From an uncultured Clostridia bacterium (lineage in GTDB: Bacteria > Bacillota > Clostridia > Christensenellales > Borkfalkiaceae), in the NCBI GenBank assembly GCA_947629695.1, contig CANREQ010000005.1:1-38370 (forward strand): 38,370 nt of DNA, in the 5' to 3' direction. Position numbers and translations under genes: made by a program. The notes under the pieces were generated by a model, which ran no database searches, had not been told where the DNA came from, and saw only the letters and a list, made by a program, of their open reading frames with translations. Positions within the stretch are counted from its first letter, which is position 1, and each line of letters starts with the position of its first letter. Below, one piece after another: positions 10,637-27,776 of this stretch.

Positions 10637-12166
10637 TTATTTCACCTGCAAATAGAAAACTATCGCAAATACTACGATGTTGAGCGCCGTTATAATGGGG
10701 ATAACGAGAAGTTTCATTATGTCGCTCACTACGGTGAAGTTGATGTTGAACAAAAACGAGCAAACGCAAATGATAAGTATTAAAATTATCGTTATCACGA
10801 CGCATTTAGATATGTAAGCGTTCGACATCGGCTTGGTGCAGTTGGCTCCGTAACCCTTGAGGAACAGCCCGCCGAATATCGCAAATTGCACCAGCCCGAT
10901 AATCAGAAGCGTCACCGGATAGATGACGGGCACGCCGAGCTTCGACCTGAAGATCATGCAGAACATAAACTCTACAAGCAGGATAAACAGCACCGCGGCG
11001 GAGCTTATCGCAAACGTCAAACCCTTGTTATAGGTGGTTTTTGTCGCGTAAGTCGTGCGAGTGTCGTACTCCGTGGAGGGAGTTACGCGCACGCCGTCCG
11101 TTTTCCCGCGGTCGATAATAACCGTCTGGGCGGCCGGCTTTTTGGGTTGCGAAGTCCTTTGTTGCTTTTCGCTTCCGTAGTCGGCCTCTACGCGGCCGTT
11201 TACAAGCGCCTTTTGGTAAATGCCGTTAATGAGGTTTTTATAATCCCTTTCGGCCTCAGATTTTACGTTGTAAAGTATTCTGTCGGTGTTAATGTTGTCG
11301 CTGTTGGGAACGACGTCAACCTCGCTCGTTGCCGGCTTGCTCTGGGCGATGGGCTCCGAGATAAGCTTTAAATAATTTTCGTGCGCACGCCTGCGCGCCT
11401 CGAGGTCCTCGGCGGAAATCCTCTCGTAGCCCGCCGTCTGGTCAGCCGCCTGACTTTGAGGCTGGGGCGGTTGCTGTTGAACGGGTTGCGGCATGGGCTG
11501 TTGGGGAGGTTGAACGGGTTGCGGCTGAGCCTGTTGTACGGGGGGCGCCTGATAAGGCTCGGCGTAAATCTCCTGAGGGGCGGGGGGAGTGTAAGCCGCG
11601 CTTTCGGGAGCGTCCGCGGCCTTGTCCTCGTCTTTTACAACGGGTACGCGCGACACCGAGTTGCGCAGTATGGAAAAATCGACGGGAGTGGGAGCGGGCT
11701 GGGTGAAATCAAAGGAGCGGTCGGAAATCAGACTGTCAATGATAGTCCTCGAGTATTCCCATTCCGCAAGATTTTTTTCGGTTATTTCCCTGCCGCTGTC
11801 GGTAAGCGTGAAGTACTTCCTTCTTCCGCCCGAAGAAACTTCGTCGCTTTTCCAATACGCCAAAATGTATCCCTGGCTTTCAAGCCTTTTAAGCGCGCTG
11901 TAAAGGGTGGGCTGTTTGAGCGAATATTGGTTGTGGCTCTTGCGCTCTATATCGCTGATGATTTCATACCCGTACTTGTCCCGCTCGTAAAGGGAGCGGA
12001 GAATTATGGTATTTATATGCCCGCGAATAAGGTCGGAGCTTATGCTGCTTTTATCTTCTTTGTCGGTAGAATCGCCCGCATCAACGTTTTGCGCGTCCCC
12101 GTCGGAGGTAGCCGCATTTACTTTGTCACGGTCGTCGCCGTCGTTTTTATCAATGAAATCGTCCAT
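10637..12166 (-). CDS. PadR-family winged-helix regulator with C-terminal membrane domain
   Basis: Residues about 44-150 are a PadR-type winged helix: ILRSLYERDKYGYEIISDIE, the recognition region QPTLYSALKRLESQGY, and the wing with SGGRRKYFTLTDSGR. PadR proteins usually repress genes in response to small molecules. A roughly 230-residue linker follows; about 155-240 is rich in Pro and Gln. The C-terminus holds four predicted membrane helices (about 383-405, 413-436, 454-475, 484-507). PadR proteins are normally soluble and 100-200 residues, so a 509-residue membrane-tethered form is odd. A short acidic leader precedes the DNA-binding domain. A perfect consensus promoter lies upstream, but the ribosome binding site is weak. 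It is divergent from the thioesterase gene, a likely target. Fold assignment is firm; the signal sensed is unknown. Confidence 0.9.
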   Translation of the reverse strand: MDDFIDKNDGDDRDKVNAATSDGDAQNVDAGDSTDKEDKSSISSDLIRGHINTIILRSLYERDKYGYEIISDIERKSHNQYSLKQPTLYSALKRLESQGYILAYWKSDEVSSGGRRKYFTLTDSGREITEKNLAEWEYSRTIIDSLISDRSFDFTQPAPTPVDFSILRNSVSRVPVVKDEDKAADAPESAAYTPPAPQEIYAEPYQAPPVQQAQPQPVQPPQQPMPQPVQQQPPQPQSQAADQTAGYERISAEDLEARRRAHENYLKLISEPIAQSKPATSEVDVVPNSDNINTDRILYNVKSEAERDYKNLINGIYQKALVNGRVEADYGSEKQQRTSQPKKPAAQTVIIDRGKTDGVRVTPSTEYDTRTTYATKTTYNKGLTFAISSAAVLFILLVEFMFCMIFRSKLGVPVIYPVTLLIIGLVQFAIFGGLFLKGYGANCTKPMSNAYISKCVVITIILILIICVCSFLFNINFTVVSDIMKLLVIPIITALNIVVFAIVFYLQVK

Positions 12167-13937: not shown

Positions 13938-15158
13938 ATGGAGAAAAAAATCAAAAAAGTAGTTTTGGCTTATTCCGGCGGGCTTGATACGTCTATAATC
14001 ATTCCCTGGCTTAAAGAAAATTACGATAACTGCGAAGTTATTGCGGTATCCGGCGACGTCGGGCAGACGACGGAGCTGGACGGCCTTCAGGAAAAGGCGA
14101 TCAAAACGGGCGCGTCAAAGCTCTATATAGAGGATTTGAAGAAGGAATTTATAGAGGATTATATTTATCCCACGATGAAAGCGGGGGCGGTGTACGAGAA
14201 TAAATATTTGCTCGGCACGTCTTTTGCCCGCCCGATCATCGCGAAAAGGATAGTGGAAATCGCCAAAAAAGAGGGCGCGGACGCGATCTGCCACGGTTGC
14301 ACGGGCAAGGGAAACGACCAGGTCCGCTTCGAGCTTACAATCAAGGCGTTTGCCCCCGAGATGAAGATAATCGCACCTTGGCGCATTTGGAGCATCAAGA
14401 GCCGCGACGAGGAAATAGATTATGCTGAAAAGCACAATATTCCCCTCAAAATAAACAGAGAGACAAACTATTCCAAGGATAAAAATCTTTGGCACCTCTC
14501 TCACGAGGGTCTAGATCTGGAAAATCCCGCAAACGAGCCCGATTACGACAAGATATTGGAGCTCGGAGTGTCTCCCTGGAAGGCTCCCGATAAGCCTACA
14601 TATGTAACCATACACTTCGAAAAGGGTATACCCACGGCGATCGACGGGAAGCAACTCGGCGCGGTGGAGATCATAGAAAAGCTCAACAAAATCGGCGGAG
14701 AAAACGGCGTGGGACTCGTCGATATGGTGGAAAACCGCCTTGTGGGAATGAAATCACGCGGCGTTTACGAAACCCCCGGCGGCACGATTTTGTATGCCGC
14801 GCACGAATTGTTGGAGTCCATTTGCCTCGACAAAGCCACTCAGCATTACAAGCAGATGATCGCCATAAAGTACGGCGAGATAGTATACGACGGCCAGTGG
14901 TTTACGCCCCTCCGCGAGGCCCTCGACGCGTTCGTCGATAAGACTCAGGAAACCGTAACGGGCGACGTAAAGCTCAAAATTTACAAGGGCAATGTGCTCA
15001 ATGCGGGGATAACGTCTCCTTATTCGCTGTACAGCGAGGATATAGCTACTTTCGGCGAGGACGACTGCTACAATCAGATGGATTCGCAGGGTTTCATCAA
15101 CCTTTTCGGCCTGCCCATAAAGGTGAAGGCGTTGCTCGACAGCAAAAAACTCAAGTAA
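13938..15158 (+). CDS. argG: Argininosuccinate synthase
   Basis: ArgG joins citrulline and aspartate with ATP to make argininosuccinate. The N-terminal PP-loop is [10 protein letters not shown] (about 10-19). [14 protein letters not shown], the [26 protein letters not shown] region (read in parts) and a C-terminal tail at 406 residues are standard. It is the first gene of the arginine operon; the ribosome binding site is weak (AGAGAG about 8-13 bases upstream of the ATG). The stop overlaps the argC start by one base (TAATG). The partner argH, often next to argG, is not in this window. Confidence 0.98.
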
Positions 15159-16090
15159 TGATAAACGTTTTTATTGACGGCAAAGAGGGCACGACGGGTC
15201 TGCAGATATACGACAGGCTTCAAAAGCGCGGGGATGTGAATATCATTGCGCTTTCCGAAGAGCTGAGAAAAAACCCCGAAGCGAGAAGGGAGTGTTTAAA
15301 CGAAGCGGACGTCAGCTTTTTGTGTTTGCCCGACGCGGCCGCAAAGGAAGCCGCGGAGATGGTCGTAAATCCCAAGGCCAAGATAATCGACGCGTCTACG
15401 GCACACCGCACAACCCCCGGTTGGATCTACGGATTTCCCGAAATTTCGGCAAAGAGAAGGGATGAGATCGCCCATTGCTCGCGTTTGGCAAACCCGGGCT
15501 GTCACGCGACGGGATTTATTTCAATCGTGGCACCCCTTGTAAAGGGCGGGATCGTGCCGGCGGATTATCCTTTTGTCGCCCATTCGGTGACGGGCTACTC
15601 CGGCGCGGGTAAAAAGACCATAGCCGTGTACGAGAGCGAGGGCAGGGATAAGGAATTGGATTCCCCCAGGCAGTACGCTATCACGCTGGAACATAAGCAT
15701 TTGCCCGAAATGCAGAGGGAATGCGGCCTGAAGTACAAGCCCATATTCAACCCGATAATCTGTGATTTTTACAGCGGAATGTGCGTGACGGTGCCTCTTT
15801 ATACCCGCCTCATGAATAAAAAATGCGGCGTTGACTCCATAAGAGAGTTTTTTAAAGAGTACTATGCCGGGCGGAATTTTTTGAAAGTTGCCTCGGCAGA
15901 AGATACCCCGTCTTTTATTCCCGCAAACAAAAACACGGATACGAATTATTTAACCATCTATGTGAGCGGAAACGACGACAGGATATTTATAGCGAGCGTA
16001 TTCGATAACCTCGGCAAAGGCGCTTCGGGCGCGGCCGTGCAGAATATGAATATAATGTTCGGGCTTGACGAGCGCACTTCGCTCATTTGA
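15158..16090 (+). CDS. argC: N-acetyl-gamma-glutamyl-phosphate reductase, type 2
   Basis: ArgC reduces N-acetylglutamyl phosphate to the semialdehyde with NADPH. The protein begins [20 protein letters not shown], the signature of the short, second ArgC type (about 310 residues) rather than the common 340-350-residue type. The catalytic cysteine is Cys115 in RLANPGCHATGF. The start overlaps the argG stop by one base. A 60-base gap with no clear promoter or terminator separates it from argJ. The type-2 form is the only arginine enzyme here that departs from the commoner Firmicutes type. Confidence 0.95.
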   Translation: MINVFIDGKEGTTGLQIYDRLQKRGDVNIIALSEELRKNPEARRECLNEADVSFLCLPDAAAKEAAEMVVNPKAKIIDASTAHRTTPGWIYGFPEISAKRRDEIAHCSRLANPGCHATGFISIVAPLVKGGIVPADYPFVAHSVTGYSGAGKKTIAVYESEGRDKELDSPRQYAITLEHKHLPEMQRECGLKYKPIFNPIICDFYSGMCVTVPLYTRLMNKKCGVDSIREFFKEYYAGRNFLKVASAEDTPSFIPANKNTDTNYLTIYVSGNDDRIFIASVFDNLGKGASGAAVQNMNIMFGLDERTSLI

Positions 16091-16150
16091 AGCGGCAAAG
16101 TTGAAACTAAATAAATACGGTTATTCAATTCAGACATTTTGACATTTAAG

Positions 16151-17368
16151 ATGAAGATAAAGGAAATAAAAGGCGGCGTATGCGCGCCCTTGGGCTTTAA
16201 GGCCAACGGCATACACTGCGGAATACGCAAAAACAAAATAAAGAAGGATTTCGCACTAATAGTAAGCGACGTGCGCGCGTCGGCGGCCGGGGTGTATACA
16301 AGCAATCTCGTGAAGGGCGCGCCCGTTCTGGTCACGAAGAAAAACCTTTCGGACGGCTATGCCCGCGCGATAATCTGTAACAGCGGCAACGCCAATACCT
16401 GCAACGCGGACGGCGTAGAGGTAGCGGAAAATATGTGCGAGTTGGTAACTTCCGTGGGCGGGATCGACGCAAAGGACGTGATAGTAGCTTCCACGGGCGT
16501 TATCGGGCAAAAGCTCGATATAACTCCCATGCGCGAGGGTATTGCTTCCCTCTGGGAGGGGCTCGGCGACAACAGCGACGGCGCGGCCGAAGCAATAATG
16601 ACGACCGACACGGTTAAAAAATCGGTTGCGGTTGAGTTCGCCGTCGGCGGAAAAAAGTGCAGAATAGGCGCAATTGCCAAGGGCGTGGGTATGGTTTGCC
16701 CCAATATGGCGACAAATCTTATATTTTTGACCAGCGACGCGGACATAACGCCGGCAATGCTTCAAAAAGCGCTCTCGGAGGACGTTAAAAGCTCTTTCAA
16801 TATGATAAGCGTGGACGGAGATCAATCCACCAACGATACATGTTGCATTATGGCAAACGGCCTTGCGGGGAATAAGCCGATAGACTGTGCGGGAAAGGAT
16901 TTCAATGCGTTTAAAAAGGCTTTGAATTACTGCACCGTAAAGCTTTCCAAAATGATAGCCAAAGACGGAGAGGGCGCGACAAAGCTCATAGAGTGCAACG
17001 TCATGGGCGCGAAGAGCGCAAAAAACGCAAAGATAATCGCGCGCACCGTCATAAAATCCTCGCTCGTAAAGGCGGCGATGTTCGGCTCCGACGCAAATTG
17101 GGGCAGGGTGCTGTGCGCAATAGGCTACGCCGGCGTGGACGTTGACGTGGATAAAATCGACGTGAGTTTTGCCTCCCGCGCGGGCGAAGTGGAAGTCTGC
17201 AAGGGCGGGCACGGCGTGGATTTCAGCGAGGAGCTGGCAAAGACCGTTCTTTCCGAGGATGAAATTTGTATAAACGTGCAACTCAATTCGGGCAGCGCTA
17301 AGGCCACCGCGTGGGGTTGCGATCTCACATACGATTACGTAAAAATAAACGGCGATTACAGGACTTAA
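16151..17368 (+). CDS. argJ: Bifunctional ornithine acetyltransferase / N-acetylglutamate synthase
   Basis: ArgJ moves the acetyl group from N-acetylornithine to glutamate and, in bifunctional forms, can also use acetyl-CoA. The autoprocessing site is in KGVGMVCPNMATNL, with Thr188 the nucleophile released at the N-terminus of the beta chain. GVIGQKLD and the GSDANWGRVLCAIGYAG region are conserved. I chose the ATG at 16151 (405 residues, MKIKEIKGGVCAPLGFKANG); an in-frame TTG at 16139 would add four residues, and neither has a good ribosome binding site. With argJ present no separate argA or argE is needed. argB begins 2 bases after the stop. Confidence 0.97.
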   Translation: MKIKEIKGGVCAPLGFKANGIHCGIRKNKIKKDFALIVSDVRASAAGVYTSNLVKGAPVLVTKKNLSDGYARAIICNSGNANTCNADGVEVAENMCELVTSVGGIDAKDVIVASTGVIGQKLDITPMREGIASLWEGLGDNSDGAAEAIMTTDTVKKSVAVEFAVGGKKCRIGAIAKGVGMVCPNMATNLIFLTSDADITPAMLQKALSEDVKSSFNMISVDGDQSTNDTCCIMANGLAGNKPIDCAGKDFNAFKKALNYCTVKLSKMIAKDGEGATKLIECNVMGAKSAKNAKIIARTVIKSSLVKAAMFGSDANWGRVLCAIGYAGVDVDVDKIDVSFASRAGEVEVCKGGHGVDFSEELAKTVLSEDEICINVQLNSGSAKATAWGCDLTYDYVKINGDYRT

Positions 17369-17370
17369 GT

Positions 17371-18216
17371 ATGGACAAGCAGGAACAGGCGGAGTTTTTG
17401 ATAGAGGCAATGCCCTATATCCGTAAATATTTGAATAAAGTGCTCGTCGTGAAATACGGCGGCAACGCGATGACGGACGAAGCTCTTAAATCCTCGGTCA
17501 TGCGCGATTTGGTCGTTTTGAATTTGTTGGGGATAAAAGTCGTATTGGTTCACGGCGGCGGCCCGGAAATATCCGAAACCATCAAGGCGATGGGCAAGGA
17601 GACGAAATTCATCGACGGATTGCGTTATACCGATAAGGAAACAGCCGAAATCGTGCGCATGGTTCTCGCGGGCAAGGTGAATAAATCGCTTGCCGACCTT
17701 ATAGGAAAGCACGGCGGTAAAGCCGTCGGCATTTGCGGACAGGACGGGCACATCATTAAATGCGAAGTGCAGGATGAAAAGCTCGGTTACGTCGGAAAAA
17801 TAACGGAGATCAATACGGGGCTTATCACCGATTTGCTCGATTTGGGCTACGTGCCCGTGATTGCGACGGTGGGTTATGACGACGACGGCAACGTCTATAA
17901 CGTCAATGCGGACACGGCCGCCGCCGCTATAGCCGGCGCGCTCGACGCGGAAAATCTGATACTCATGACGGATATACGCGGGTTGCTTGAAAATAAAGAC
18001 GATCCGTCAAGCCTTATAAAAAAAGTTTATGTATCCGACATACCCGCGTACGTAAAGCAGGGGATAATTTCAGGCGGAATGATACCGAAAATAGAATGTG
18101 CGAAAGAGGCAATACGCCGCGGCGTAAAAAAAGCCGTCATAATTGACGGCCGCGTTTGTCATTCTATTTTAATAGAAATTTTATCCGACGAAGGTAGCGG
18201 AACGATGTTTATCTGA
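17371..18216 (+). CDS. argB: Acetylglutamate kinase
   Basis: ArgB phosphorylates N-acetylglutamate, usually the step inhibited by arginine in ArgJ-cycle organisms. Family motifs are VVKYGGNAM (Lys28), VLVHGGGPEI (about 58-67), the NVNADTAAAAIAGAL region and SGGMIPKIECA near the C-terminus. Its 281 residues are slightly short of the usual 290-300. I chose the ATG at 17371, two bases after the argJ stop; an in-frame upstream start lies within argJ and would add a non-conserved 20-residue leader. A short hairpin separates it from argD. Confidence 0.98.
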   Translation: MDKQEQAEFLIEAMPYIRKYLNKVLVVKYGGNAMTDEALKSSVMRDLVVLNLLGIKVVLVHGGGPEISETIKAMGKETKFIDGLRYTDKETAEIVRMVLAGKVNKSLADLIGKHGGKAVGICGQDGHIIKCEVQDEKLGYVGKITEINTGLITDLLDLGYVPVIATVGYDDDGNVYNVNADTAAAAIAGALDAENLILMTDIRGLLENKDDPSSLIKKVYVSDIPAYVKQGIISGGMIPKIECAKEAIRRGVKKAVIIDGRVCHSILIEILSDEGSGTMFI

Positions 18217-18217
18217 C

Positions 18218-18250
18218 GACTGATTTAAATTATAAATCAGTCTTTATTTT
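18218..18250 (+). terminator. AT-rich hairpin between argB and argD, possible weak terminator
   Basis: GACTGATTTA (18218-18227) pairs perfectly with TAAATCAGTC (18233-18242) around a 5-base loop and is followed by TTTATTTT. The low G+C of the stem suggests partial termination or an mRNA processing/stability element inside the operon rather than a hard stop. Confidence 0.4.
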
Positions 18251-18261
18251 AGTGGTGGGTT

Positions 18262-19422
18262 ATGGACAAGAACGAAATTCTCCGTGAGGACAAACAATTT
18301 ATTGCAAATACATACGCGCGTTTTCCCGTAGTTATTGCCTCGGGCGAGGGCGCATGTCTGAAAGATTGCGACGGGAAGGAGTACATCGATTGCGCTTCTG
18401 GTATAGGTGTGAACATTTTCGGCATAAACGACGAAGAGTGGAAAGAGGCGGTCAAGGCCCAGATAGATAATATCCAGCACGTCTGCAATCTTTATTATTC
18501 CGCGCCGCAGGTGGAACTTGCAAAAGCGCTTTGCACCCGCACGGGTTGCAGAAAGGTGTTTTTCGGCAACAGCGGTGCGGAGGCAAACGAGTGCGCCATA
18601 AAAGCCGCCCGCAAGTACGGAAATACTCGCTACGGCAGATATGAGATAATAACGCTCAAAAATTCCTTCCACGGAAGGACAATAGCCACTCTCACGGCGA
18701 CGGGGCAGGAGGAATTTCACAAATATTACGATCCCTTTTTGAAAGGATTCAGATATGCAGAGCCCACAATGGACGGCATCTTCTCCTGCTACACGGATAA
18801 AACTTGCGCCGTGATGATCGAGGTCATACAGGGCGAGAGCGGCGTAAACGTACTCGACAAAAAATTCTTGAAAGAGCTGGAAAAATTCTGCAGGGAACGG
18901 GATATTCTGTTGATTTGCGACGAGGTGCAGTGCGGCAACGGGCGCACGGGATACATGTACGCCTATGAATGGGCGGGGATACAGCCCGACATTGTTACGA
19001 CGGCCAAGGGATTGGGCGGCGGACTTCCCATAGGCGCGTGTATGCTCTTCGATAAGTGCGAAAACGTTTTCGGCGCGGGCGACCACGGAACGACGTTCGG
19101 CGGAAATCCCGTGGCGTGCGCAGGCGCGGTCAGCATAGTAAACAGGATCACGCCCGAACTTTTGCTGGAAGTACAGGGCAAGGGCGCGTATCTCATTAAA
19201 AATATAGAGCATATCAAAAACGTATCTGCGGTGAGCGGGCTGGGGCTTATGATTGGAATAAGCACAGACAAACCGCCCAGGTATGTGGCCGAAAAATGCC
19301 TAGAAAAAGGGCTAATAGTGCTTACAGCACACAACAAAGTACGGCTTTTGCCGCCGCTTAACATAACTAAGGGACAAATGGACACAGCTTTGAAAATATT
19401 AAACGAGGTGATTTCGCAATGA
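18262..19422 (+). CDS. argD: Acetylornithine aminotransferase
   Basis: ArgD is a class III PLP transaminase that converts N-acetylglutamate semialdehyde to N-acetylornithine. Markers: FGNSGAEANECAIKAAR (PLP phosphate region), SFHGRT, ICDEVQCGNGRTG (Asp220) and TTAKGLGGGLPIG with PLP lysine Lys249. At 386 residues it is full length. GGTGG-like sequence just upstream of the ATG at 18262 can serve as a ribosome binding site. The stop overlaps the argF start (ATGA). Related transaminases are hard to separate by motif, but the operon context makes ArgD the best call. Confidence 0.96.
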   Translation: MDKNEILREDKQFIANTYARFPVVIASGEGACLKDCDGKEYIDCASGIGVNIFGINDEEWKEAVKAQIDNIQHVCNLYYSAPQVELAKALCTRTGCRKVFFGNSGAEANECAIKAARKYGNTRYGRYEIITLKNSFHGRTIATLTATGQEEFHKYYDPFLKGFRYAEPTMDGIFSCYTDKTCAVMIEVIQGESGVNVLDKKFLKELEKFCRERDILLICDEVQCGNGRTGYMYAYEWAGIQPDIVTTAKGLGGGLPIGACMLFDKCENVFGAGDHGTTFGGNPVACAGAVSIVNRITPELLLEVQGKGAYLIKNIEHIKNVSAVSGLGLMIGISTDKPPRYVAEKCLEKGLIVLTAHNKVRLLPPLNITKGQMDTALKILNEVISQ

Positions 19423-20321
19423 GGCATTTACTAAAATTACAGGATTTGACGAGAGAGGACATTTTATCCATTCTGAACCTTGCCGATCAGCTCAAATTCG
19501 AGCGCAACAACGGCATTAAAAAGGATTATCTCAACGGCAAAAAGCTGGGAATGATATTCCAGAAAGCTTCCACCCGCACAAGGGTATCCTTCGAAGTGGG
19601 AATTTACGAGCTCGGCGGCTACGGATTATTTCTTTCGAGCAACGATCTGCAGATAGGCAGGGGAGAGCCCGTACAGGATACGGCGCGAGTACTTTCCCGC
19701 TATCTCGACGGCATCATGATAAGGACGTTCGAGCAAAAGGAAGTCGAGGATCTGGCAAAATACGGGTCTATCCCCGTAATAAACGGCCTCACGGACTACG
19801 CGCATCCCTGCCAGGTGCTCGCCGATTTAATGACTATACGCGAGTACAAGGGCAGTTTCAAGGGCTTGAAAATGGCGTTTGTTGGCGACGGAAACAACAT
19901 GGCAAACAGCCTCATGGTCGGCGCGGTTAAGACGGGTATGGAATTTTCCATTGCCTGCCCCGTGGGATTCGAGCCGGATAAAGAGCTCATGAAGTGGGCG
20001 GAAGAAAACGGCACGTTTACTTTGACGCGCGACGTCAAAGAGGCGCTGAAAGACGCGGACGTCGTGTACACCGACGTATGGGCTTCCATGGGTCAGGAAG
20101 GTGAAAAGGCCAAGCGCGAAAAGGCGTTCAAGGGCTATCAGGTCAACGAAGAAAATCTCAAAGTTGCCAAGCCCGACGTTATGTGTCTGCATTGCCTGCC
20201 CGCCCACCGCGGAGAGGAGATAACCGAAGAGACGTTTGAAAAGCACGCAAAGGAAATTTTCGACGAGGCCGAAAACAGATTGCACGCGCAAAAAGCGGTA
20301 ATGGTCAAACTTTTAAAATAA
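19419..20321 (+). CDS. argF: Ornithine carbamoyltransferase
   Basis: ArgF condenses ornithine with carbamoyl phosphate to give citrulline. The carbamoyl-phosphate loop is STRTR (51-55) in FQKASTRTRVSFE; HPCQVLADL and the ornithine-side HCLPAHRGEEI are also present. At 300 residues it is a normal anabolic-type OTCase. It overlaps argD by four bases and is followed after 43 bases by carA, so enzyme and carbamoyl-phosphate supply are co-expressed. Nothing suggests the catabolic arginine deiminase form, since arcA and arcC are absent. Confidence 0.98.
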   Translation: MRHLLKLQDLTREDILSILNLADQLKFERNNGIKKDYLNGKKLGMIFQKASTRTRVSFEVGIYELGGYGLFLSSNDLQIGRGEPVQDTARVLSRYLDGIMIRTFEQKEVEDLAKYGSIPVINGLTDYAHPCQVLADLMTIREYKGSFKGLKMAFVGDGNNMANSLMVGAVKTGMEFSIACPVGFEPDKELMKWAEENGTFTLTRDVKEALKDADVVYTDVWASMGQEGEKAKREKAFKGYQVNEENLKVAKPDVMCLHCLPAHRGEEITEETFEKHAKEIFDEAENRLHAQKAVMVKLLK

Positions 20322-20364
20322 AATTTCTTTGGCGGAAACACATTTTTCGGGGACAAAACTGATT

Positions 20365-21435
20365 ATGAAAGAAGAAAAAGTATACTTGACTTTGCAAAAC
20401 GGCAGACAATTCGTAGGGTACAGGTTCGGCGCGAGCGGCGACGTGGTGGGCGAACTTGTATTTACAACGGGCATGACGGGATATATCGAAACGCTCACCG
20501 ACCCGAGCTATTACGGTCAGATAGTCATTCAGACTTTCCCGCTCATCGGCAACTACGGAGTGACCCCCGACATGCAGAGCGACAGACCTTGGGTTTCGGC
20601 GTATATCGTGCGCGAAAAGTGCGATATGCCCTCCAATTTCCGTTGCGAGGGCACGATTGAAAAATACCTCAAGGACAACAACATCGTCGGTATTTACGGC
20701 CTCGACACGAGGGAGCTTACCAAAATAGTGAGGGAGACGGGCGTAATGAACGCGTCCATAACCTCCAAACCGACGGTAAACATGAAAGAAATAGAAAATT
20801 ACCGCATAATAAACGCCGTCAAGAGCGTAACTTGCAAACAGCCCGTCTACCTCGGCGATCCGGACGGAATGAGGATAGTAGTCTGGGATTTCGGCGCGAA
20901 GTACAATATCGCCAACGAATTGGCAAAGCGCGGGTGCTATTGCATAGTCGTTCCCGCAACGTACACGGCGGAGCAGATCCTCGCGCTCGAGCCCCGGGGA
21001 CTCATGCTCAGCAACGGCCCGGGAGATCCAAGCGACAATGCGGATATCATAGAAAATATCAGAAAACTTATCGGGAAGTTGCCCATTTTCGGCATATGCC
21101 TCGGGCATCAGCTTCTCGCGCTGGCTATGGGCGGCAAGACTAAAAAGATGAAATACGGTCACAGGGGCGGCAACCAGCCCGTTAAAAATTTAAAGACGGG
21201 CAGGGTTTATATCTCAAGCCAAAACCACGGCTACGAAGTAATTTCTTCAAGTATTCCCGTAGGCACGCTCAGCTATATTAACGCGAACGACGGCACGTGC
21301 GAGGGCGTGGATTATCCCGAATACAATGCGTTTACCGTGCAATTCCATCCCGAGGCAAGGGGCGGCCCCCGCGACGCTTCCTTCCTCTTCGACAAATTCT
21401 TGAAAAATGTAAGGGAGGGGAAGTACAATGCCTAA
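20365..21435 (+). CDS. carA: Carbamoyl-phosphate synthase small subunit
   Basis: CarA hydrolyses glutamine and channels ammonia to CarB. The class I amidotransferase domain has the nucleophile Cys245 in FGICLGHQLL and the His328/Glu330 pair in FHPEA; the N-terminal half is the CarA-specific domain (LTLQNGRQFVGYRFG to about 150). I chose the ATG at 20365 (356 residues); an in-frame TTG at 20329 would add 12 non-conserved residues. The ribosome binding site is weak (GGGG about 12 bases upstream). The gene overlaps carB by 8 bases, which should keep the subunits at equal levels. Confidence 0.97.
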   Translation: MKEEKVYLTLQNGRQFVGYRFGASGDVVGELVFTTGMTGYIETLTDPSYYGQIVIQTFPLIGNYGVTPDMQSDRPWVSAYIVREKCDMPSNFRCEGTIEKYLKDNNIVGIYGLDTRELTKIVRETGVMNASITSKPTVNMKEIENYRIINAVKSVTCKQPVYLGDPDGMRIVVWDFGAKYNIANELAKRGCYCIVVPATYTAEQILALEPRGLMLSNGPGDPSDNADIIENIRKLIGKLPIFGICLGHQLLALAMGGKTKKMKYGHRGGNQPVKNLKTGRVYISSQNHGYEVISSSIPVGTLSYINANDGTCEGVDYPEYNAFTVQFHPEARGGPRDASFLFDKFLKNVREGKYNA

Positions 21436-24400
21436 GAGAGAAGATATAAAAAAGGTGCTCGTAATAGGTTCGGGCCCCATAATAATCGGACAGGCGGCGG
21501 AGTTCGACTACGCCGGCGCGCAGGCCTGCCGCGTTTTGAAGGACGCCGGCATAAACGTCGTTTTGTGCAACTCCAACCCCGCGACGATAATGACGGATAA
21601 GGCGCTCGCCGATGAAATTTACCTCGAGCCGCTCACTACCGATACTTTAAAGAGAATAATAATAGAAGAACGCCCCGACAGTTTGCTCGCGTCTTTGGGC
21701 GGTCAGACGGGATTGACTCTCGGCTGTCAGCTTGCAAAAGAGGGCTTTTTGGATCAGTACGGCGTTAAACTCATAGGCGTTAAGCTCGATTCCATAGACA
21801 GGGCGGAGGACAGGGAACTGTTCAAGGAGACAATGCAGAAGATCCACCAGCCCGTCGTTCCTTCGGATATAGCATACACGGTGGACGAGTGCGTAGCCGT
21901 TGCCGAAAAAATAGGCGGCTATCCCGTGATCGTGCGCCCGGCGTACACCCTCGGCGGCGCGGGCGGCGGCGTTGCTTACAGCGAGGAAGAGCTTCGCCTT
22001 ATCGCGCATAACGGGCTCATGCTTTCGCCGATTACGCAGGTGCTTATCGAAAAGTATATAGGCGGCTGGAAGGAGATAGAGTTCGAGGTTCTGCGCGACG
22101 GCGCGGGCAACGTCCTGACGGTCTGCTCCATGGAAAACTTCGACCCCGTCGGCGTACACACGGGTGACAGCATAGTCATAGCCCCCGCGGTTACCCTTTC
22201 CGACGAGGAATACCAGATGCTTCGCACTGCGTCGCTGGATATTATAACTGAGCTCGGCATAGAGGGCGGGTGCAACTGCCAGTTTGCGCTCAATCCCGAC
22301 AGCTTCGAGTACGCTGTAATAGAGGTCAATCCGCGTGTTTCGCGTTCCTCCGCGCTCGCTTCCAAGGCAACGGGCTATCCCATAGCCAAAGTAGCGACGA
22401 AAATCGCGCTCGGCTACACCCTCGACGAGATAAAAAACGACGTTACGGGCAAGACCTTTGCATGCTTCGAGCCCACGCTGGATTACGTCGTGATAAAGCT
22501 TCCCAAGTGGCCGTTCGATAAATTCCTTTACGCGAAGAGGACTTTGGGCACGAGGATGAAGGCCACCGGCGAGGTCATGGCCATAGGCACGAGCTTCGAA
22601 CAGGCGATCATGAAAGCCGTGCGGGGCGCGGAAATTTCGTTGAATTCTCTGAATATGCCCAAAATGGCGGCGTTTACGGACGAAGAAATCGCGGCGAAAT
22701 TGCACGAGCTCACCGACGAAAGGCTGTTTGTCGTTTACGAGGCGTTGAAGCGCGGCATTGCGGTTGAGGAAATATATGAAATTACAAAGATAGACGAGTG
22801 GTTTTTGAATAAACTTTTAAACCTCGTCGCATTCGAAAAGTGCATTTGCGGCAGGCAGATCACGCGCGCGGAATATTTGAAAGGCAAAAAGCTGGGCTAT
22901 CCCGATAAGGAATTGGAAAAGATCAGCGGCAATAAAATACCCATGCACGCGCGCGCCACGTTCAAAATGGTCGATACGTGCGGCGCGGAATTCTCCGCAC
23001 AAACGCCCTATTTCTATTCCACATACGACTCCAATGATCACGACGAGGCCGCGCCCTATGTCGTAAAGAGCCGCGCAAGCAAGAAAAAGCGCATAATAGT
23101 TATCGGTTCCGGCCCCATAAGAATAGGTCAGGGCATAGAGTTCGACTATTCTTCCGTCCATTGCGTCTGGGCGTTGAAGAGGCTGGGCTATGAAGTCATA
23201 ATTATAAACAACAACCCTGAAACCGTATCCACCGACTTCGATACTGCGGACAGGCTGTATTTCGAAAGCCTAACGCCCGAGGACGTCCAGAACGTCATCG
23301 ACGTGGAAAAGCCCTACGGCGTCGTAATAACCTTCGGCGGTCAGACGGCTATAAAATTGTGCGGTTATCTCGACAAAAAGGGAATACGCATACTCGGCAC
23401 TCCCGCGGACAGCGTCGATCTTGCCGAGGACAGGGAGAGGTTTGACGAGCTGTTGGAGCAGTTTAATATCGCGCGACCCAAGGGCCTCACCGTAATGACC
23501 AAGGAAGAGGCTGTCGCGGCGGCCGAAAAGCTCGGTTATCCCGTGCTTCTGCGCCCTTCATACGTCATCGGTGGTCAGAATATGACGATCGCCTTTACGC
23601 AGAACGATATAGAGCGCTACATGGACGTAATTTTGGCGCAGAAGATAGAAAACCCCGTGCTCTGCGATAAATATCTGATGGGTTCGGAGCTTGAAGTTGA
23701 CGCGATTTCGGACGGCACCGATGTGCTTATTCCCGGCATAATGCAGCATATCGAGCGCGCGGGCGTGCACAGCGGAGACTCTATAGCCGTCTATCCGCCC
23801 TATAATCTCAGCGACGCGATGCTCAAAAAGATAGTGGAAGTATCCACAAACCTCGCGCTTTCTTTAAAGACCAAGGGCCTTATAAATATTCAGTACCTCA
23901 TCTATCATAACGAGTTGTACGTCATAGAGGTAAACCCGAGGGCTTCGCGCACCGTTCCCTATATTTCCAAGGTCACGGGCGTGCCTATGGTGGACCTCGC
24001 AACCAAAATAATGGTCGGCGCAAAGCTCAGAAAGCTGGGTTACGGCACGGGATTATATCCGAATTCACCCTATGTTGCGGTAAAAGTGCCCGTGTTCTCG
24101 TTTGAAAAGCTTAACGACGTCAACTCCCAGCTCGGACCCGAGATGAAGTCAACGGGCGAGGTGCTCGGCATAGGCAAGACCATAGAGGAAGCTCTGTTCA
24201 AGGGGCTCGTTTCTGCGGGCTTCAACGTAAAACACCCCACAAAACAGCATCCTTCAGGCATTTATTTCACCGTAAACGACCAGGATAAGCTTGAAATCGT
24301 AAACATAGTCAAAAAGTTTGCGGACCTCGGGCTTACGCTGTACGCTACGGCGGGCACGGCAAACGTCATAAGGAGCTTGGGGCTCGAATGTACGGACGTT

Positions 24401-25492
24401 GCAAGGCTTTCCACCAACGACGAAATTTTCAAGCTGATGGACGAGGGCAAGATAGACTATGTGGTTTACACGGGTAAAACTGACATTGAATCCATAACAA
24501 ACTACATTTCTCTTCACCATCACGCCATTTTGCTCGGAATAACCGTGCTGACTTCACTCGATACGACCAACGCGCTTGCGGACGTAATTGCGGGCAGGTA
24601 CAACCAATTCAATACAGAGCTTGTGGATATAAACAGGCTCCGGAAGGAAAAACTCAAGCTCAGCTTCTGTAAGATGCACAGTTGCGGCAATGATTATATC
24701 CTATTCAACAACATGGACGGCGGCATAACCTGCCCGGAGTCTCTCGCGATAAATTTTGCCGACAGGCATTACGGAATAGGCGCGGACGGTATCGTAATGA
24801 TAGAAAAATCGGACGTCGCCGACGCAAAGATACGCGTTTTCAACAGGGACGGAAGCAGCGGAGGCCTTGCGGCCAATCCAATAAGGTGCGTTGCGAAGTA
24901 TCTGTATGATAACCGCATTGTCACACGCGGTGATATGACTGTGGAGTGCGAGGGCAAGGCGCGCAATTTAAGCGTAAACATTTTTAATAATGTCGCAAGC
25001 TCCGTTTCACTCAACCTCGGCAAACTGTCGGCGGAAATTGCGGGCGACGGAATGGACGAAAGCGGCAAAATAATCTGCAAAACAGTCAACTGCGACGGCA
25101 AAGAATACACCGTGTATTGCACTTGCGTGGGCAATCCCCATTGCGTGATCTTCGTCGATAAGGTTGACGATGTGGATATGGACGCGCTCGGTCAGGCGCT
25201 TGTTTATTCGGGCGATTTCCCCGCCGGATTGTATCTCGAATGCGTGAGGGTGGTAAACAACATAACCATTAAAATGCGCGTTTGGGAGATGCTTAACGGC
25301 GAAACATGGGCGTGCGGCACGGCGGCCGCGGCGGCGGCCCTTGCGGCTATCGCAGGAGGAAAGTGTTCTGAAGACGAAATTATAACCGTCAAATTAAAGG
25401 GCGGCGACTTGTTTGTCAAAATAAACGCCGACGGAGAAACGGAGCTTGACGGCACCGTAAAAGAATCGTTCAGAGGAGTTATCGAAATTTAA
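21428..25492 (+). CDS. carB: Carbamoyl-phosphate synthase large subunit fused to a DapF-like domain
   Basis: Residues 1 to about 1073 are a complete CarB: two homologous ATP-grasp halves (the second opens with VIGSGPIRIGQGIEFDYSS near 558) and a C-terminal methylglyoxal-synthase-like allosteric domain from about 944. After VDINRLR and a linker of only a few residues, the frame continues without a stop into a DapF-type domain (about 1076-1354). That domain keeps GNDY (Asn1088), NRDGS (Asn1139), GNPH (Asn1236), E1287 and ACGT (Cys1296). The first catalytic cysteine is Ala1148, and DAP-binding positions are Tyr1269 and Met1288 instead of Asn and Arg. CarB function is firm. The DapF part is probably not a normal epimerase; see findings. 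The stop is followed at once, and in the same frame, by the ATG of the next gene. Confidence 0.95.
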   Translation: MPKREDIKKVLVIGSGPIIIGQAAEFDYAGAQACRVLKDAGINVVLCNSNPATIMTDKALADEIYLEPLTTDTLKRIIIEERPDSLLASLGGQTGLTLGCQLAKEGFLDQYGVKLIGVKLDSIDRAEDRELFKETMQKIHQPVVPSDIAYTVDECVAVAEKIGGYPVIVRPAYTLGGAGGGVAYSEEELRLIAHNGLMLSPITQVLIEKYIGGWKEIEFEVLRDGAGNVLTVCSMENFDPVGVHTGDSIVIAPAVTLSDEEYQMLRTASLDIITELGIEGGCNCQFALNPDSFEYAVIEVNPRVSRSSALASKATGYPIAKVATKIALGYTLDEIKNDVTGKTFACFEPTLDYVVIKLPKWPFDKFLYAKRTLGTRMKATGEVMAIGTSFEQAIMKAVRGAEISLNSLNMPKMAAFTDEEIAAKLHELTDERLFVVYEALKRGIAVEEIYEITKIDEWFLNKLLNLVAFEKCICGRQITRAEYLKGKKLGYPDKELEKISGNKIPMHARATFKMVDTCGAEFSAQTPYFYSTYDSNDHDEAAPYVVKSRASKKKRIIVIGSGPIRIGQGIEFDYSSVHCVWALKRLGYEVIIINNNPETVSTDFDTADRLYFESLTPEDVQNVIDVEKPYGVVITFGGQTAIKLCGYLDKKGIRILGTPADSVDLAEDRERFDELLEQFNIARPKGLTVMTKEEAVAAAEKLGYPVLLRPSYVIGGQNMTIAFTQNDIERYMDVILAQKIENPVLCDKYLMGSELEVDAISDGTDVLIPGIMQHIERAGVHSGDSIAVYPPYNLSDAMLKKIVEVSTNLALSLKTKGLINIQYLIYHNELYVIEVNPRASRTVPYISKVTGVPMVDLATKIMVGAKLRKLGYGTGLYPNSPYVAVKVPVFSFEKLNDVNSQLGPEMKSTGEVLGIGKTIEEALFKGLVSAGFNVKHPTKQHPSGIYFTVNDQDKLEIVNIVKKFADLGLTLYATAGTANVIRSLGLECTDVARLSTNDEIFKLMDEGKIDYVVYTGKTDIESITNYISLHHHAILLGITVLTSLDTTNALADVIAGRYNQFNTELVDINRLRKEKLKLSFCKMHSCGNDYILFNNMDGGITCPESLAINFADRHYGIGADGIVMIEKSDVADAKIRVFNRDGSSGGLAANPIRCVAKYLYDNRIVTRGDMTVECEGKARNLSVNIFNNVASSVSLNLGKLSAEIAGDGMDESGKIICKTVNCDGKEYTVYCTCVGNPHCVIFVDKVDDVDMDALGQALVYSGDFPAGLYLECVRVVNNITIKMRVWEMLNGETWACGTAAAAAALAAIAGGKCSEDEIITVKLKGGDLFVKINADGETELDGTVKESFRGVIEI

Positions 25493-26620
25493 ATGATCTA
25501 TTTCGACAATGCGGCGACGACAAAACCAGACGCACAATGTTTGAAAGCGGCGCAAAAATATCTCGATGATCAATTTTATAATCCTTCCGCATTGTATGCG
25601 GAAGGTTATAATTTGCATAGGGAATTGGCCGAAACCAAGTCGCAAATACTCAATTTTATAGCAAATGACCGCGATTTTGAGGTTATTTTTACATCCGGCG
25701 GCACCGAAGCGGATAACCAGGCGCTGTTTTGCGGCGGAAAGCGGGGAAACATCGTAATAACCGCGGGCGAACACGCGGCGGTTTACATGGCGGCAAACGC
25801 CCTCAAAGAAAGGGGTATAGAGGTGCGCATAGCCCCGCTCAACGGCGACGGTAGCGTAGTTTGCGATAAACTTTTAGGCTTGGTTGACATCAACACGTCG
25901 CTTGTATCCGTTATCCACGTCAACAATGAGACGGGCGCGATAAATGACATAAATTATCTGTCCAAGGCCGTCAAAAGGATAAATCCGAGGGCGCTTTTCC
26001 ATTCCGACGGAGTGCAAGCTTTCGGCAAGATTGACGAAAAGCTCGGCAAAGATATTGATTTATACAGCATTTCGGCGCACAAGATAGGCGCGTTGAAGGG
26101 CACAGGCGCGCTGGTAAAGCGCAAATCGGCCGCAATAAAGCCGTTTATCTTCGGCGGCGGACAGGAAAACGGACTGAGGAGCGGCACGGAAAACGTTTTC
26201 GGAATTAAAATGCTCGCGTTCGCGGCTGATAAAAAATACACTTGCATTGGGGAAAATTATTCAAAAGTCGCCAAATTGAACGCGCTTTTACGCGAAAGGC
26301 TGGATAAATCGCTATTCGAAACGATAAGCGGCGAATGCGCGTCGCCCTATATTTTATCTGTCGGCGCGAGGGGCGTGCGCGGCGAGACCATTCTGCATGA
26401 AGTCAACGACAAAGGATTGATTATCGGGACGGGTTCGGCATGTTCATCAAACGAAAAAAAGAGGTATTCCCGCGTGATTTTGGCGTGCGGCGTGCCCGAA
26501 GAGGCGGCGGACGGCGTCCTGCGCATAAGTTTTTGCGCCGATAATACCGAGGATGAAGTCCTACGCGCGGCGGAGATACTCAATAGCACGGTAAAAAGCA
26601 GACGGGATATAATGGTTTGA
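25493..26620 (+). CDS. Cysteine desulfurase (NifS/IscS class)
   Basis: A PLP enzyme that takes sulfur from cysteine as a protein persulfide. Markers: YFDNAATT at the N-terminus, TSGGTEADNQA, HVNNETGAIN, HSDGVQAFGK, the PLP lysine Lys197 in SAHKIGALKGTG and the persulfide cysteine Cys317 in GTGSACSSNEKK. At 375 residues it is the compact NifS/NifZ-like type. It begins directly after the carB stop (TAAATG) and lies one base before thiI. That pairing resembles the NifZ-ThiI pair of Bacillus, so its main client is probably ThiI rather than general Fe-S assembly; no scaffold gene is nearby. Confidence 0.95.
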   Translation: MIYFDNAATTKPDAQCLKAAQKYLDDQFYNPSALYAEGYNLHRELAETKSQILNFIANDRDFEVIFTSGGTEADNQALFCGGKRGNIVITAGEHAAVYMAANALKERGIEVRIAPLNGDGSVVCDKLLGLVDINTSLVSVIHVNNETGAINDINYLSKAVKRINPRALFHSDGVQAFGKIDEKLGKDIDLYSISAHKIGALKGTGALVKRKSAAIKPFIFGGGQENGLRSGTENVFGIKMLAFAADKKYTCIGENYSKVAKLNALLRERLDKSLFETISGECASPYILSVGARGVRGETILHEVNDKGLIIGTGSACSSNEKKRYSRVILACGVPEEAADGVLRISFCADNTEDEVLRAAEILNSTVKSRRDIMV

Positions 26621-26621
26621 T

Positions 26622-27776
26622 ATGGAAAAAGTTATAATAATTCGCTATTGCGAGATACATCTTAAGGGCGGAAACAGGGGATTTTTCGAAAAAATGTTGG
26701 TTGACAACATGGAAAAGGCCCTGAAAGGCTTTAAGCACGTAATTAAAAAGCACAGCGGGCGCTATTTGATAGAGGGTTTTGCGCCAGACGATGCAGACGA
26801 GATGGTTTTCCGTCTTACAAAGGTTTTCGGGATACATACTCTCAGCGTCGCCGACAAAACGGACAGCAACTTAGATGATATTTTGGCCGCCGCGCTCGAA
26901 GTCGGGCCGGAGTGCGGAACTTTTAAAGTGGAAAGCCATAGGGCAGATAAAAATTTCCCACTCAATTCCATGCAATTAAGCGCGGAAATTGGCGGTAAAA
27001 TGCTTGAAAAAAGGCCGCATTTGAAGGTCGATATACACAATCCGCAATCAGTAATAGGTATAGACGTGCGCGAAAACGGAAAAACGCTTGTGTTCGGCGA
27101 TGTCATCGCGGGTGCGGGCGGCATGCCCGTGGGCACCGCAGGCAAGGGAATGCTCTTAATTTCCGGCGGTATTGACAGCCCTGTGGCAGGTCACATGATG
27201 GCGAGGCGTGGCATGACGCTGGAGTGCGTGCACTTCCACAGCTATCCGTACACAAATATGCAGGCGCGCGAAAAAGTGGAAGAGCTCGCGAAGGTTTTGT
27301 CTACGTATTCTTGCGGAATAAAACTGAATGTGGTTAAGGTCACGCACATACAGGAAGAGATACACAAAAAATGCAACGGCGACTTTATGGTAACCCTTTT
27401 AAGGCGGTTTATGATGAGAATTGCCGAGCGGTTGGCAAAAAGATGCGGCGCGCAGTGCCTGATTACGGGCGAAAGCTTGGGACAGGTGGCAAGCCAGACG
27501 GTGGAGGGCATGACTTCATCGGGAAGCGTTGTGGAAAGTCTGCCGATAATGAGGCCGCTTTGCGGATTCGATAAAAACGAGATTATAGAGCGGAGCAGGT
27601 CGATAGGAACATACGATATATCCATAAGACCATATGAGGATTGCTGTACAGTATTCCTTCCCCGTCATCCCGTAATTCACCCCAAGATTGAGGATGTGCT
27701 GAAAGAGGAAGAAAAGCTTGACGTAGAGGGATTGATAAAAGAAGCCATGAACTCTCTCGAAATAGTTTCGCTTTGA
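26622..27776 (+). CDS. thiI: tRNA 4-thiouridine synthase ThiI
   Basis: ThiI adenylates U8 of tRNA and inserts sulfur to make 4-thiouridine; in some species it also feeds thiamine thiazole synthesis. The order is an N-terminal ferredoxin-like domain, THUMP (about 60-165) and a PP-loop ATPase with LISGGIDSPVAG (about 179-190), ending in the typical EDCCTVFLPRHPV stretch. Its 384 residues lack the C-terminal rhodanese domain of the enterobacterial enzyme, as in Bacillus. It is the last gene of the operon that starts at argG; a GC-rich hairpin follows 22 bases after the stop. Confidence 0.97.
   Translation: MEKVIIIRYCEIHLKGGNRGFFEKMLVDNMEKALKGFKHVIKKHSGRYLIEGFAPDDADEMVFRLTKVFGIHTLSVADKTDSNLDDILAAALEVGPECGTFKVESHRADKNFPLNSMQLSAEIGGKMLEKRPHLKVDIHNPQSVIGIDVRENGKTLVFGDVIAGAGGMPVGTAGKGMLLISGGIDSPVAGHMMARRGMTLECVHFHSYPYTNMQAREKVEELAKVLSTYSCGIKLNVVKVTHIQEEIHKKCNGDFMVTLLRRFMMRIAERLAKRCGAQCLITGESLGQVASQTVEGMTSSGSVVESLPIMRPLCGFDKNEIIERSRSIGTYDISIRPYEDCCTVFLPRHPVIHPKIEDVLKEEEKLDVEGLIKEAMNSLEIVSL

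Follow-up and report, generated by a model that had tools for sequence, protein, structure and literature searches.

A DapF-fold domain on the CarB subunit of a clostridial arginine-operon carbamoyl-phosphate synthase: a candidate non-catalytic binding or regulatory domain

In the window analysed here, a stretch of 38,370 nucleotides from an uncultured gut bacterium of the Clostridia (GenBank assembly GCA_947629695.1, contig CANREQ010000005.1), the large subunit of carbamoyl-phosphate synthase (CPS), CarB, is joined in one reading frame to a domain with the fold of the diaminopimelate (DAP) epimerase DapF. On balance we somewhat favour the reading that the added part is a non-catalytic ligand-binding or regulatory domain on the CPS of an arginine operon. 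Its residues make it near certain that DAP epimerase activity has been lost in the window-type domain, and a sensor role for the silenced domain is what we infer. CPS stands at a metabolic branch point and is a textbook case of allostery. Metabolic enzymes joined by a single fusion are already known, as are regulatory domains that were once enzymes; the CarB-DapF case is a new form of these, and searches of the open-licence literature found no paper on such a fusion.

The fused frame, its distribution and its origin

A single frame on the + strand, as are all window features below unless noted, runs from the ATG at 21428 to the TAA at 25490-25492 (whole open reading frame 21428-25492). It holds 1354 codons before the stop, and its product of 1354 amino acids has a calculated mass of 148,230 Da (148.2 kDa), in agreement with the product of about 148 kDa proposed in the original prediction, which had been made from the DNA alone. 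Residues 1-1072 (21428..24643) form the CarB part, ending in VDINRLR, in which Pfam recognises two ATP-grasp halves, an oligomerisation domain and an MGS domain. This part exceeds the cut-offs of both CarB families, NF003671 (1438.9 bits, cut-off 599, over residues 1-1055) and TIGR01369 (1395.8 bits, cut-off 1027). The MGS-like allosteric domain (PF02142) occupies residues 956-1041 (24293..24550). A linker, KEKLKL (24644..24661), follows, the last residues of which already belong to the first DapF strand, so that this strand starts about five residues past residue 1072. The DapF-fold domain comprises residues 1079-1354 (24662..25489); TIGR00652 matches it over residues 1079-1352 with 198.1 bits (cut-off 114.65) and PF01678 in two stretches with 131.7 bits. 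An AlphaFold2 model of the domain, built with an alignment of 46 fused proteins, has a mean predicted local distance difference test score of 89.7, and its top Protein Data Bank match in Foldseek is the DapF 2otn at a template modelling score of 0.90, covering the full two-lobe fold. The original description of CarB running in frame into a full-length DapF fold, with only a few linker residues after VDINRLR, was thus borne out.

The fusion is widespread, and the idea that it is unique to this genome was rejected. Of 36 further genomes from the same genus, 29 have a fused locus, which in one of them is cut by a contig end. The remaining seven include two with fragments at contig ends and five without a match to the fused domain; four of these five (G009, G017, G018, G035) also lack CarB, and G023 has only a CarB fragment. 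Twenty-one genus genomes were searched for CarB: 14 have one full fused copy, two have one copy cut by a contig end and five have none, and no unfused CarB was found in any of the 21. The alternative foreseen in the original prediction, that relatives always carry the two parts as separate genes, therefore fails. As a separate observation, G018, which is 96% complete, has a PyrB-type carbamoyltransferase over cut-off and no CarB match. At the level of the class, at least 54 of 392 genomes in an even sample (window genome included) carry the fusion, as 50 frames of more than 1300 amino acids and four cut by contig ends; this sample and four more genus genomes together place the fused frame in 28 family groups. 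A phylum-wide set of 398 genomes contributes 17 from outside the class, recognised solely by the length of the frame (1314-1389 amino acids) and by a match that spans both the end of CarB and the DapF domain. A sample of named genomes gave 75 fused and five standalone loci among the 80 listed, and fused records not labelled as metagenome-assembled genomes include Oscillibacter ruminantium GH1, O. valericigenes An860 and Gemmiger sp. An120.

In a 150-row tree of the last 490 residues of CarB, a single branch with a Shimodaira-Hasegawa-like approximate likelihood ratio test (SH-aLRT) value of 100 separates all 129 fused rows from 20 unfused clostridial rows and E. coli. A smaller tree of the same region, in which 22 of 31 genus rows were left out for thinning, places 59 fused of 80 rows on one side of a branch, again with SH-aLRT 100. 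Shuffled fused and unfused labels need 19-20 changes on these trees. Five fused rows with a short CarB (L248, L195, L197, L216, L251) were left out of the 150-row tree; four of them are still counted among the 77 clade members described below, by residue state alone. The trees show one clade of fused CarBs and one fusion origin among the rows tested, with which the DapF-domain tree broadly agrees. Six standalone DapFs (L107, L108, L109, L110, L075, L084) nest inside the fused rows of the latter tree and are probably fissions of the fusion.

Two residue states of the DapF domain

E. coli DapF served as the alignment reference for reading the residues of the domain; the first alignment was made after removal of 12 duplicate or fragmentary loci. 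In DapF, N11 is assigned to the alpha-amino group of the substrate, G74, N75, G218 and S219 to the alpha-carboxylate, E208 to the distal amine, and N64, N157, N190 and R209 to the distal carboxylate (PMC8225329). Both catalytic cysteines and the listed contacts are kept in 34/34 standalone DapFs aligned. The window domain has only one of the two cysteines: the codon GCG at 24869..24871 places Ala1148 at catalytic Cys73, with a further Ala in the next codon at Gly74, and TGC at 25313..25315 retains the second, Cys217, as Cys1296. Two of the four distal-carboxylate contacts are also replaced, Asn190 by Tyr1269 (25232..25234) and Arg209 by Met1288 (25289..25291); N64 and N157 are kept, as are N11 and N75. 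In the DapF-like racemase PddB, exchange of a cysteine for serine leaves less than 0.1% activity (PMC8225329).

The fused domains fall into two states. In the first, seen in 37 domains with Cys73, the listed catalytic and pocket residues are intact in 37/37, Cys217 included, except that position 44 is Gly and position 219 Thr in all 37. The second is that of an 82-row clade (SH-aLRT 100), to which the window domain belongs and in which Cys73 occurs in 0/82. In the clade members from outside the window genus, 77 in number, Ala (64), Gly (11) or Ser (two) occupies position 73, and the surrounding pocket is retained almost throughout (N64 in 77, N75 in 75, N157 in 76, N190 in 76, E208 in 76, R209 in 75, G218 in 77); Cys217 is kept in 73, the other four having Ser or Asn. 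The 31 genus domains have Ala (30) or Ser (one) at position 73, Ala for Gly74 in 30, Phe or Tyr for N190 in 29 and Lys for R209 in 27, and keep Cys217 in 30. Parsimony on the presence of Cys73 requires seven changes over 129 fused rows, the direction of change not being inferred, and so Cys73 was probably lost several times outside the main clade as well. Eleven fused rows without Cys73 that lie outside it were set aside (L038, L255, L253, L078, L083, L085, L090, L082, L246, L091, L103). Among the named-genome loci listed, Cys73 is absent in 65 of 75 fused domains, a fraction biased upward because that sample was fetched with a query lacking Cys73. The clade comparison also revealed a cysteine, Cys1102 in the window (24731-24733, motif TCPESL), that is present in 88% of the 77 clade members and 31/31 genus members and is rare in other DapFs, together with Asn in place of Cys at E. 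coli position 18 and Glu at position 49.

Outside the window genus, nine of 11 other pocket positions of the clade are at least 96% conserved, compared with 61 of 281 columns (P 2.5e-5). N64, G74, N75, N157, N190, E208, R209 and G218 stand at 96-100%, the mean column at 70%. Selection was gauged on 24 pairs picked by hand. The ratio of nonsynonymous to synonymous substitution rates (dN/dS) of the domain was 0.02-0.18 in the 19 pairs without Cys73, dS being near saturation in many, and that of the neighbouring CarB was 0.005-0.032 in the 18 of those pairs where it could be computed; in pairs that keep Cys73 the domain dN was 1.1-2.4 times that of CarB in four and zero in the fifth. Six genus genomes compared in 15 pairs give 63-88% identity for the fused domain, against 65-78% for standalone DapF. 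The low dN/dS and an identity on a par with standalone DapF show that the fused domain is maintained, with no decay.

The window genome has a separate, intact, free-standing dapF (locus L040, G000:C78:2799-3641) in the order purA-dapF-pyrG-dapL, dapL being cut by the contig end. As to whether this gene had split off from the fusion, the DapF tree places it outside the fused rows. Its pyrG-dapL neighbourhood is the same as that of some apparently active fused genes (carB~dapF) in relatives. Sixty genomes with the fusion, 28 without and 32 with Cys73, were then compared for other routes to DAP. A second DapF is present in 20/28 Cys73-lost and 3/32 Cys73-kept genomes (Fisher p 7.6e-7, kinship ignored), where G042, which is 51% complete and has fragments only, was counted as having one; the fusion is thus the sole DapF in 29/32 Cys73-kept genomes. 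A PF01678 search of the eight Cys73-lost genomes without a second DapF found none either. Seven of the eight have the meso-DAP dehydrogenase Ddh (PF16654), and G401, an 88% complete draft, has neither. Because Ddh or a Ddh-like match is also present in 26/32 Cys73-kept genomes, it is no specific partner of Cys73 loss; none was found in the five genus genomes searched for it. Six Cys73-kept genomes were found with neither a second DapF nor Ddh, and there the fused domain is the sole DAP epimerase candidate seen.

Arginine context, allosteric residues and competing explanations

Where the flank read was long enough, in 14 clade loci, arginine genes lie directly upstream of the fused gene in 12, the exceptions being G272 and G346, and carA stands between them and carB~dapF in 10 of those 12 (no carA match was found there in G106 and G402). 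None of the remaining 29 fused loci, of which 23 have Cys73 and six do not, shows arg genes within the stretches read. Among the named-genome loci listed, many of them short fetched stretches, at least two arg genes accompany 24/65 Cys73-lost and 0/10 Cys73-kept fusions. The Cys73-kept loci have other neighbours: dapL adjoins or lies near the fusion in 10/23, in some cases with pyrG, purF or purC, and four of five dapL proteins checked passed TIGR03542 at E 1e-150. The interpretation in the original prediction is supported in part: a link between lysine and carbamoyl-phosphate metabolism is visible in relatives with an intact DapF and a nearby dapL. It had not foreseen the missing cysteine and altered pocket of the window domain, the separate intact dapF or the wide spread of the fusion. 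Several clade genomes (G106, G402, G218, G143) have a second, unfused CarB near pyrB.

The window CarB retains the ATP-grasp residues of E. coli in its first half (R129, R169, E215, Q285, E299, N301) and in its second (R715, E761, Q829, E841, N843), and differs at E208 and H754, both of which are Lys. Thr977 and Lys993 are named for uridine monophosphate (UMP) and Thr1042 for ornithine (PMC6245113). The loop for UMP and inosine monophosphate (IMP) is non-canonical in the window, with Arg at K993, Tyr at 1015 and Gly at 1017, and the equivalent of T977 is kept. Lys993 is found in 36/36 Cys73-kept fusions and 15/73 clade members outside the genus, and Arg takes its place in 9/9 genus rows. Positions 1015 and 1017 are both Ser in 36/36 Cys73-kept fusions, Tyr (63/73) and Gly (65/73) in the clade outside the genus, and Tyr and Gly in 9/9 genus rows; loop columns 1015-1028 vary in length, so that their assignment is approximate. 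Thr1042, the ornithine contact, is present in 36/36, 71/73 and 9/9, respectively. A pairwise alignment had given Ala for the window at this position; the 150-row alignment, which was used, gives Thr within LTSLDTTN. Judged by these residues, CPS of the clade lineage may no longer be under canonical control by nucleotides and may still respond to ornithine.

A sequence of events can be proposed on this basis. The ancestral protein would have been a working DAP epimerase joined to a CPS on the nucleotide side, in an order such as purF-carA-carB~dapF-(pyrG)-dapL. The derived clade would then have seen the enzyme move into the arginine operon, its MGS domain lose the canonical UMP/IMP loop, not Thr977, and keep the ornithine contact Thr1042, and DapF turn into a non-catalytic binding domain with a modulating or stabilising effect on CPS. 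The MGS domain next to it, DapF dimerisation, or both could relay binding to CPS. It is the maintained fold, the near-invariant pocket and the small residue that always replaces Cys73 that argue for a non-catalytic binding domain. For most clade members the preserved pocket points to DAP as the ligand. Members of the window genus would more likely bind an amino acid that lacks a distal carboxylate (lysine, ornithine or arginine), unless their site is being lost; the ornithine, arginine or citrulline that the original prediction had suggested would be compatible with the lost N190 and R209 contacts. The fullest version of this scheme, in which CPS gave up UMP/IMP control and came to be governed by the silenced DapF, which would bind DAP in most members and another amino acid in the window genus and so couple arginine supply to cell-wall and lysine precursors, we put forward only tentatively.

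Known systems offer partial parallels. Compared with bacterial CarB (NF003671/TIGR01369), the window protein has the whole architecture, with ATP-grasp residues largely kept, but an extra C-terminal domain of about 280 residues and a non-canonical UMP/IMP loop in MGS. With DapF (TIGR00652, PDB 2otn and 4ijz) its domain shares the two-lobe fold, Cys217, N11, N64, N75 and N157; it differs in the replacement of Cys73, Gly74, N190 and R209 and in being part of CarB. The 2,4-diaminobutyrate racemase PddB likewise has N190 and R209 changed, which its authors read as lost distal-carboxylate recognition, and this parallel makes a ligand like lysine, ornithine or arginine reasonable for the window genus; PddB is free-standing, however, keeps both cysteines, and has N64 and N157 changed, which the window keeps (PMC8225329). 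A mutant E. coli DapF in which Ala replaces the two catalytic Cys can still bind and activate RppH (PMC4227774; PDB 6d13), so that a silent DapF acting on another enzyme without epimerase chemistry has a tested precedent, although the two proteins there are not covalently joined and DapF in its natural form remains an enzyme. Human CPS1 is also a CPS with a former enzyme domain that has lost its catalytic Cys (to Ser), but there the dead domain is the CPS's own glutaminase and was not recruited from another pathway (PMC4655335).

Several results weigh against a binding or regulatory domain in the arginine branch. In a tree-aware test, the association of Cys73 loss with a second DapF retained only three supported independent pairs and was not significant. 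The link to the arg operon and the change in the UMP loop follow one branch and count as one event. Loss of the UMP site is incomplete, as Thr977, named as crucial for UMP inhibition, is kept in 35/36 Cys73-kept fusions, 72/73 clade members outside the genus and 9/9 genus rows. Lys993 is also absent in 6/20 unfused CarBs, and its presence in 11/11 of the Cys73-lost rows outside the clade indicates that DapF silencing alone brings no UMP-loop change. Since CarB occurs only once in the window genome, which also encodes PyrB, the CPS there presumably feeds pyrimidine synthesis as well as the arginine pathway. Within the domain, Cys217 is kept in more members (73/77 and 30/31) than a pure sensor would need, and N11, the alpha-amino contact, is present in only 57/77 clade members, with Asp in 16. 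The pocket of the window genus is variable (E208 in 15/31, N190 in 1/31, R209 in 1/31), with six of 11 pocket positions above 96%, which is no more than chance (P 0.12). Finally, the domain has a dN that exceeds the value for the neighbouring CarB by a factor of 1.9-13 across the 19 pairs without Cys73.

The last two points bear on the main rival, a structural role, which would be strongest in the window genus: the domain would have lost its chemistry and be kept only for CarB folding, stability or oligomerisation, with no ligand sensed. A joint model of MGS and DapF, in which the domain itself is confident, reaches a predicted template modelling score of only 0.63 with no defined interface predicted; the domain evolves faster than CarB; and it has no separate life that we could see, being missing in the four genus genomes that lack CarB. 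We nevertheless consider a purely structural passenger rather unlikely, because outside the genus the eight DAP contacts stand so far above the mean column, because position 73 takes small residues only, as if the pocket must stay open, and because N190 and R209 moved in the genus to a new consensus (Phe or Tyr in 29/31, Lys in 27/31), not at random.

It is improbable, we think, that the domain is a one-cysteine enzyme, in which Cys217 alone would carry out elimination, isomerisation or slow racemisation of an amino acid of the arginine pathway or a related one. The persistence of Cys217 where Cys73 is gone, along with its presence in 37/37 domains with Cys73, would fit such an enzyme; the fold relatives include a trans-3-hydroxyproline dehydratase (6r76), and racemase-fold enzymes with Thr for one catalytic Cys have been described (PMC8142540). 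However, Ala or Gly at position 73 provides no acid on the other face, most of the clade retains the residues for DAP specificity, Ser or Asn replaces Cys217 in 4/77 members, and no pathway gap that needs such a step was identified.

A working bifunctional CPS and DAP epimerase in the window organism is very improbable. Automatic annotation would agree with it, as the domain passes the cut-off of TIGR00652, 'diaminopimelate epimerase', and it is probably true of the Cys73-kept relatives, including the six genomes noted above; but the replacement of Cys73, Gly74, Asn190 and Arg209 and the intact dapF that this genome has next to pyrG and dapL led us to reject the fused domain as this organism's epimerase. 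An artefact of assembly or annotation, in favour of which stands only that the window genome is a draft in 116 contigs, is negligible and, as an assembly accident, ruled out by conservation of the fusion across the genus, the class, the named genomes and the phylum, with the same frame in 28 family groups and in records not labelled as metagenome-assembled genomes.

If the series from an apparently working bifunctional protein, through a silenced domain with an intact pocket, to a rebuilt pocket, all descended from one fusion, is true, it would offer a stepwise test of how an enzyme domain becomes regulatory. It also carries a warning for annotation: because TIGR00652 names the window domain an epimerase and loss of Cys73 is common among fused domains, the lysine/peptidoglycan step can be filled in by mistake when metabolic models are built.

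Neighbouring genes in the window

The arginine operon named in the original prediction was recovered at 13938-21435. NCBIfam models identify argG-argC-argJ-argB-argD-argF at 13938..20321, leading into carA, which encodes the small subunit (20329..21435; NF009475/TIGR01368 over cut-off) and overlaps carB by eight bases. The ATG of an IscS/NifS-type cysteine desulfurase gene directly follows the carB~dapF stop, and thiI comes next (25493..27776 for the two). An IscS/NifS-type desulfurase gene and thiI follow in the same order in G028, G351, G272 and G413. No argH was found among the window genes scanned (13938-27776), and an Rfam scan of the window gave no match at gathering scores. Besides ArgF and PyrB, the window genome has a third carbamoyltransferase (G000:C4:16933-17823), with a match of similar score in 17/17 genus genomes searched. 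The window ArgC (15158-16090) is of the TIGR01851 'argC_other' type (372 bits), not TIGR01850. A 509-residue frame on the opposite strand (10637-12166, -) has as its sole Pfam match a PadR-like domain at residues 55-128 (E 1e-10).

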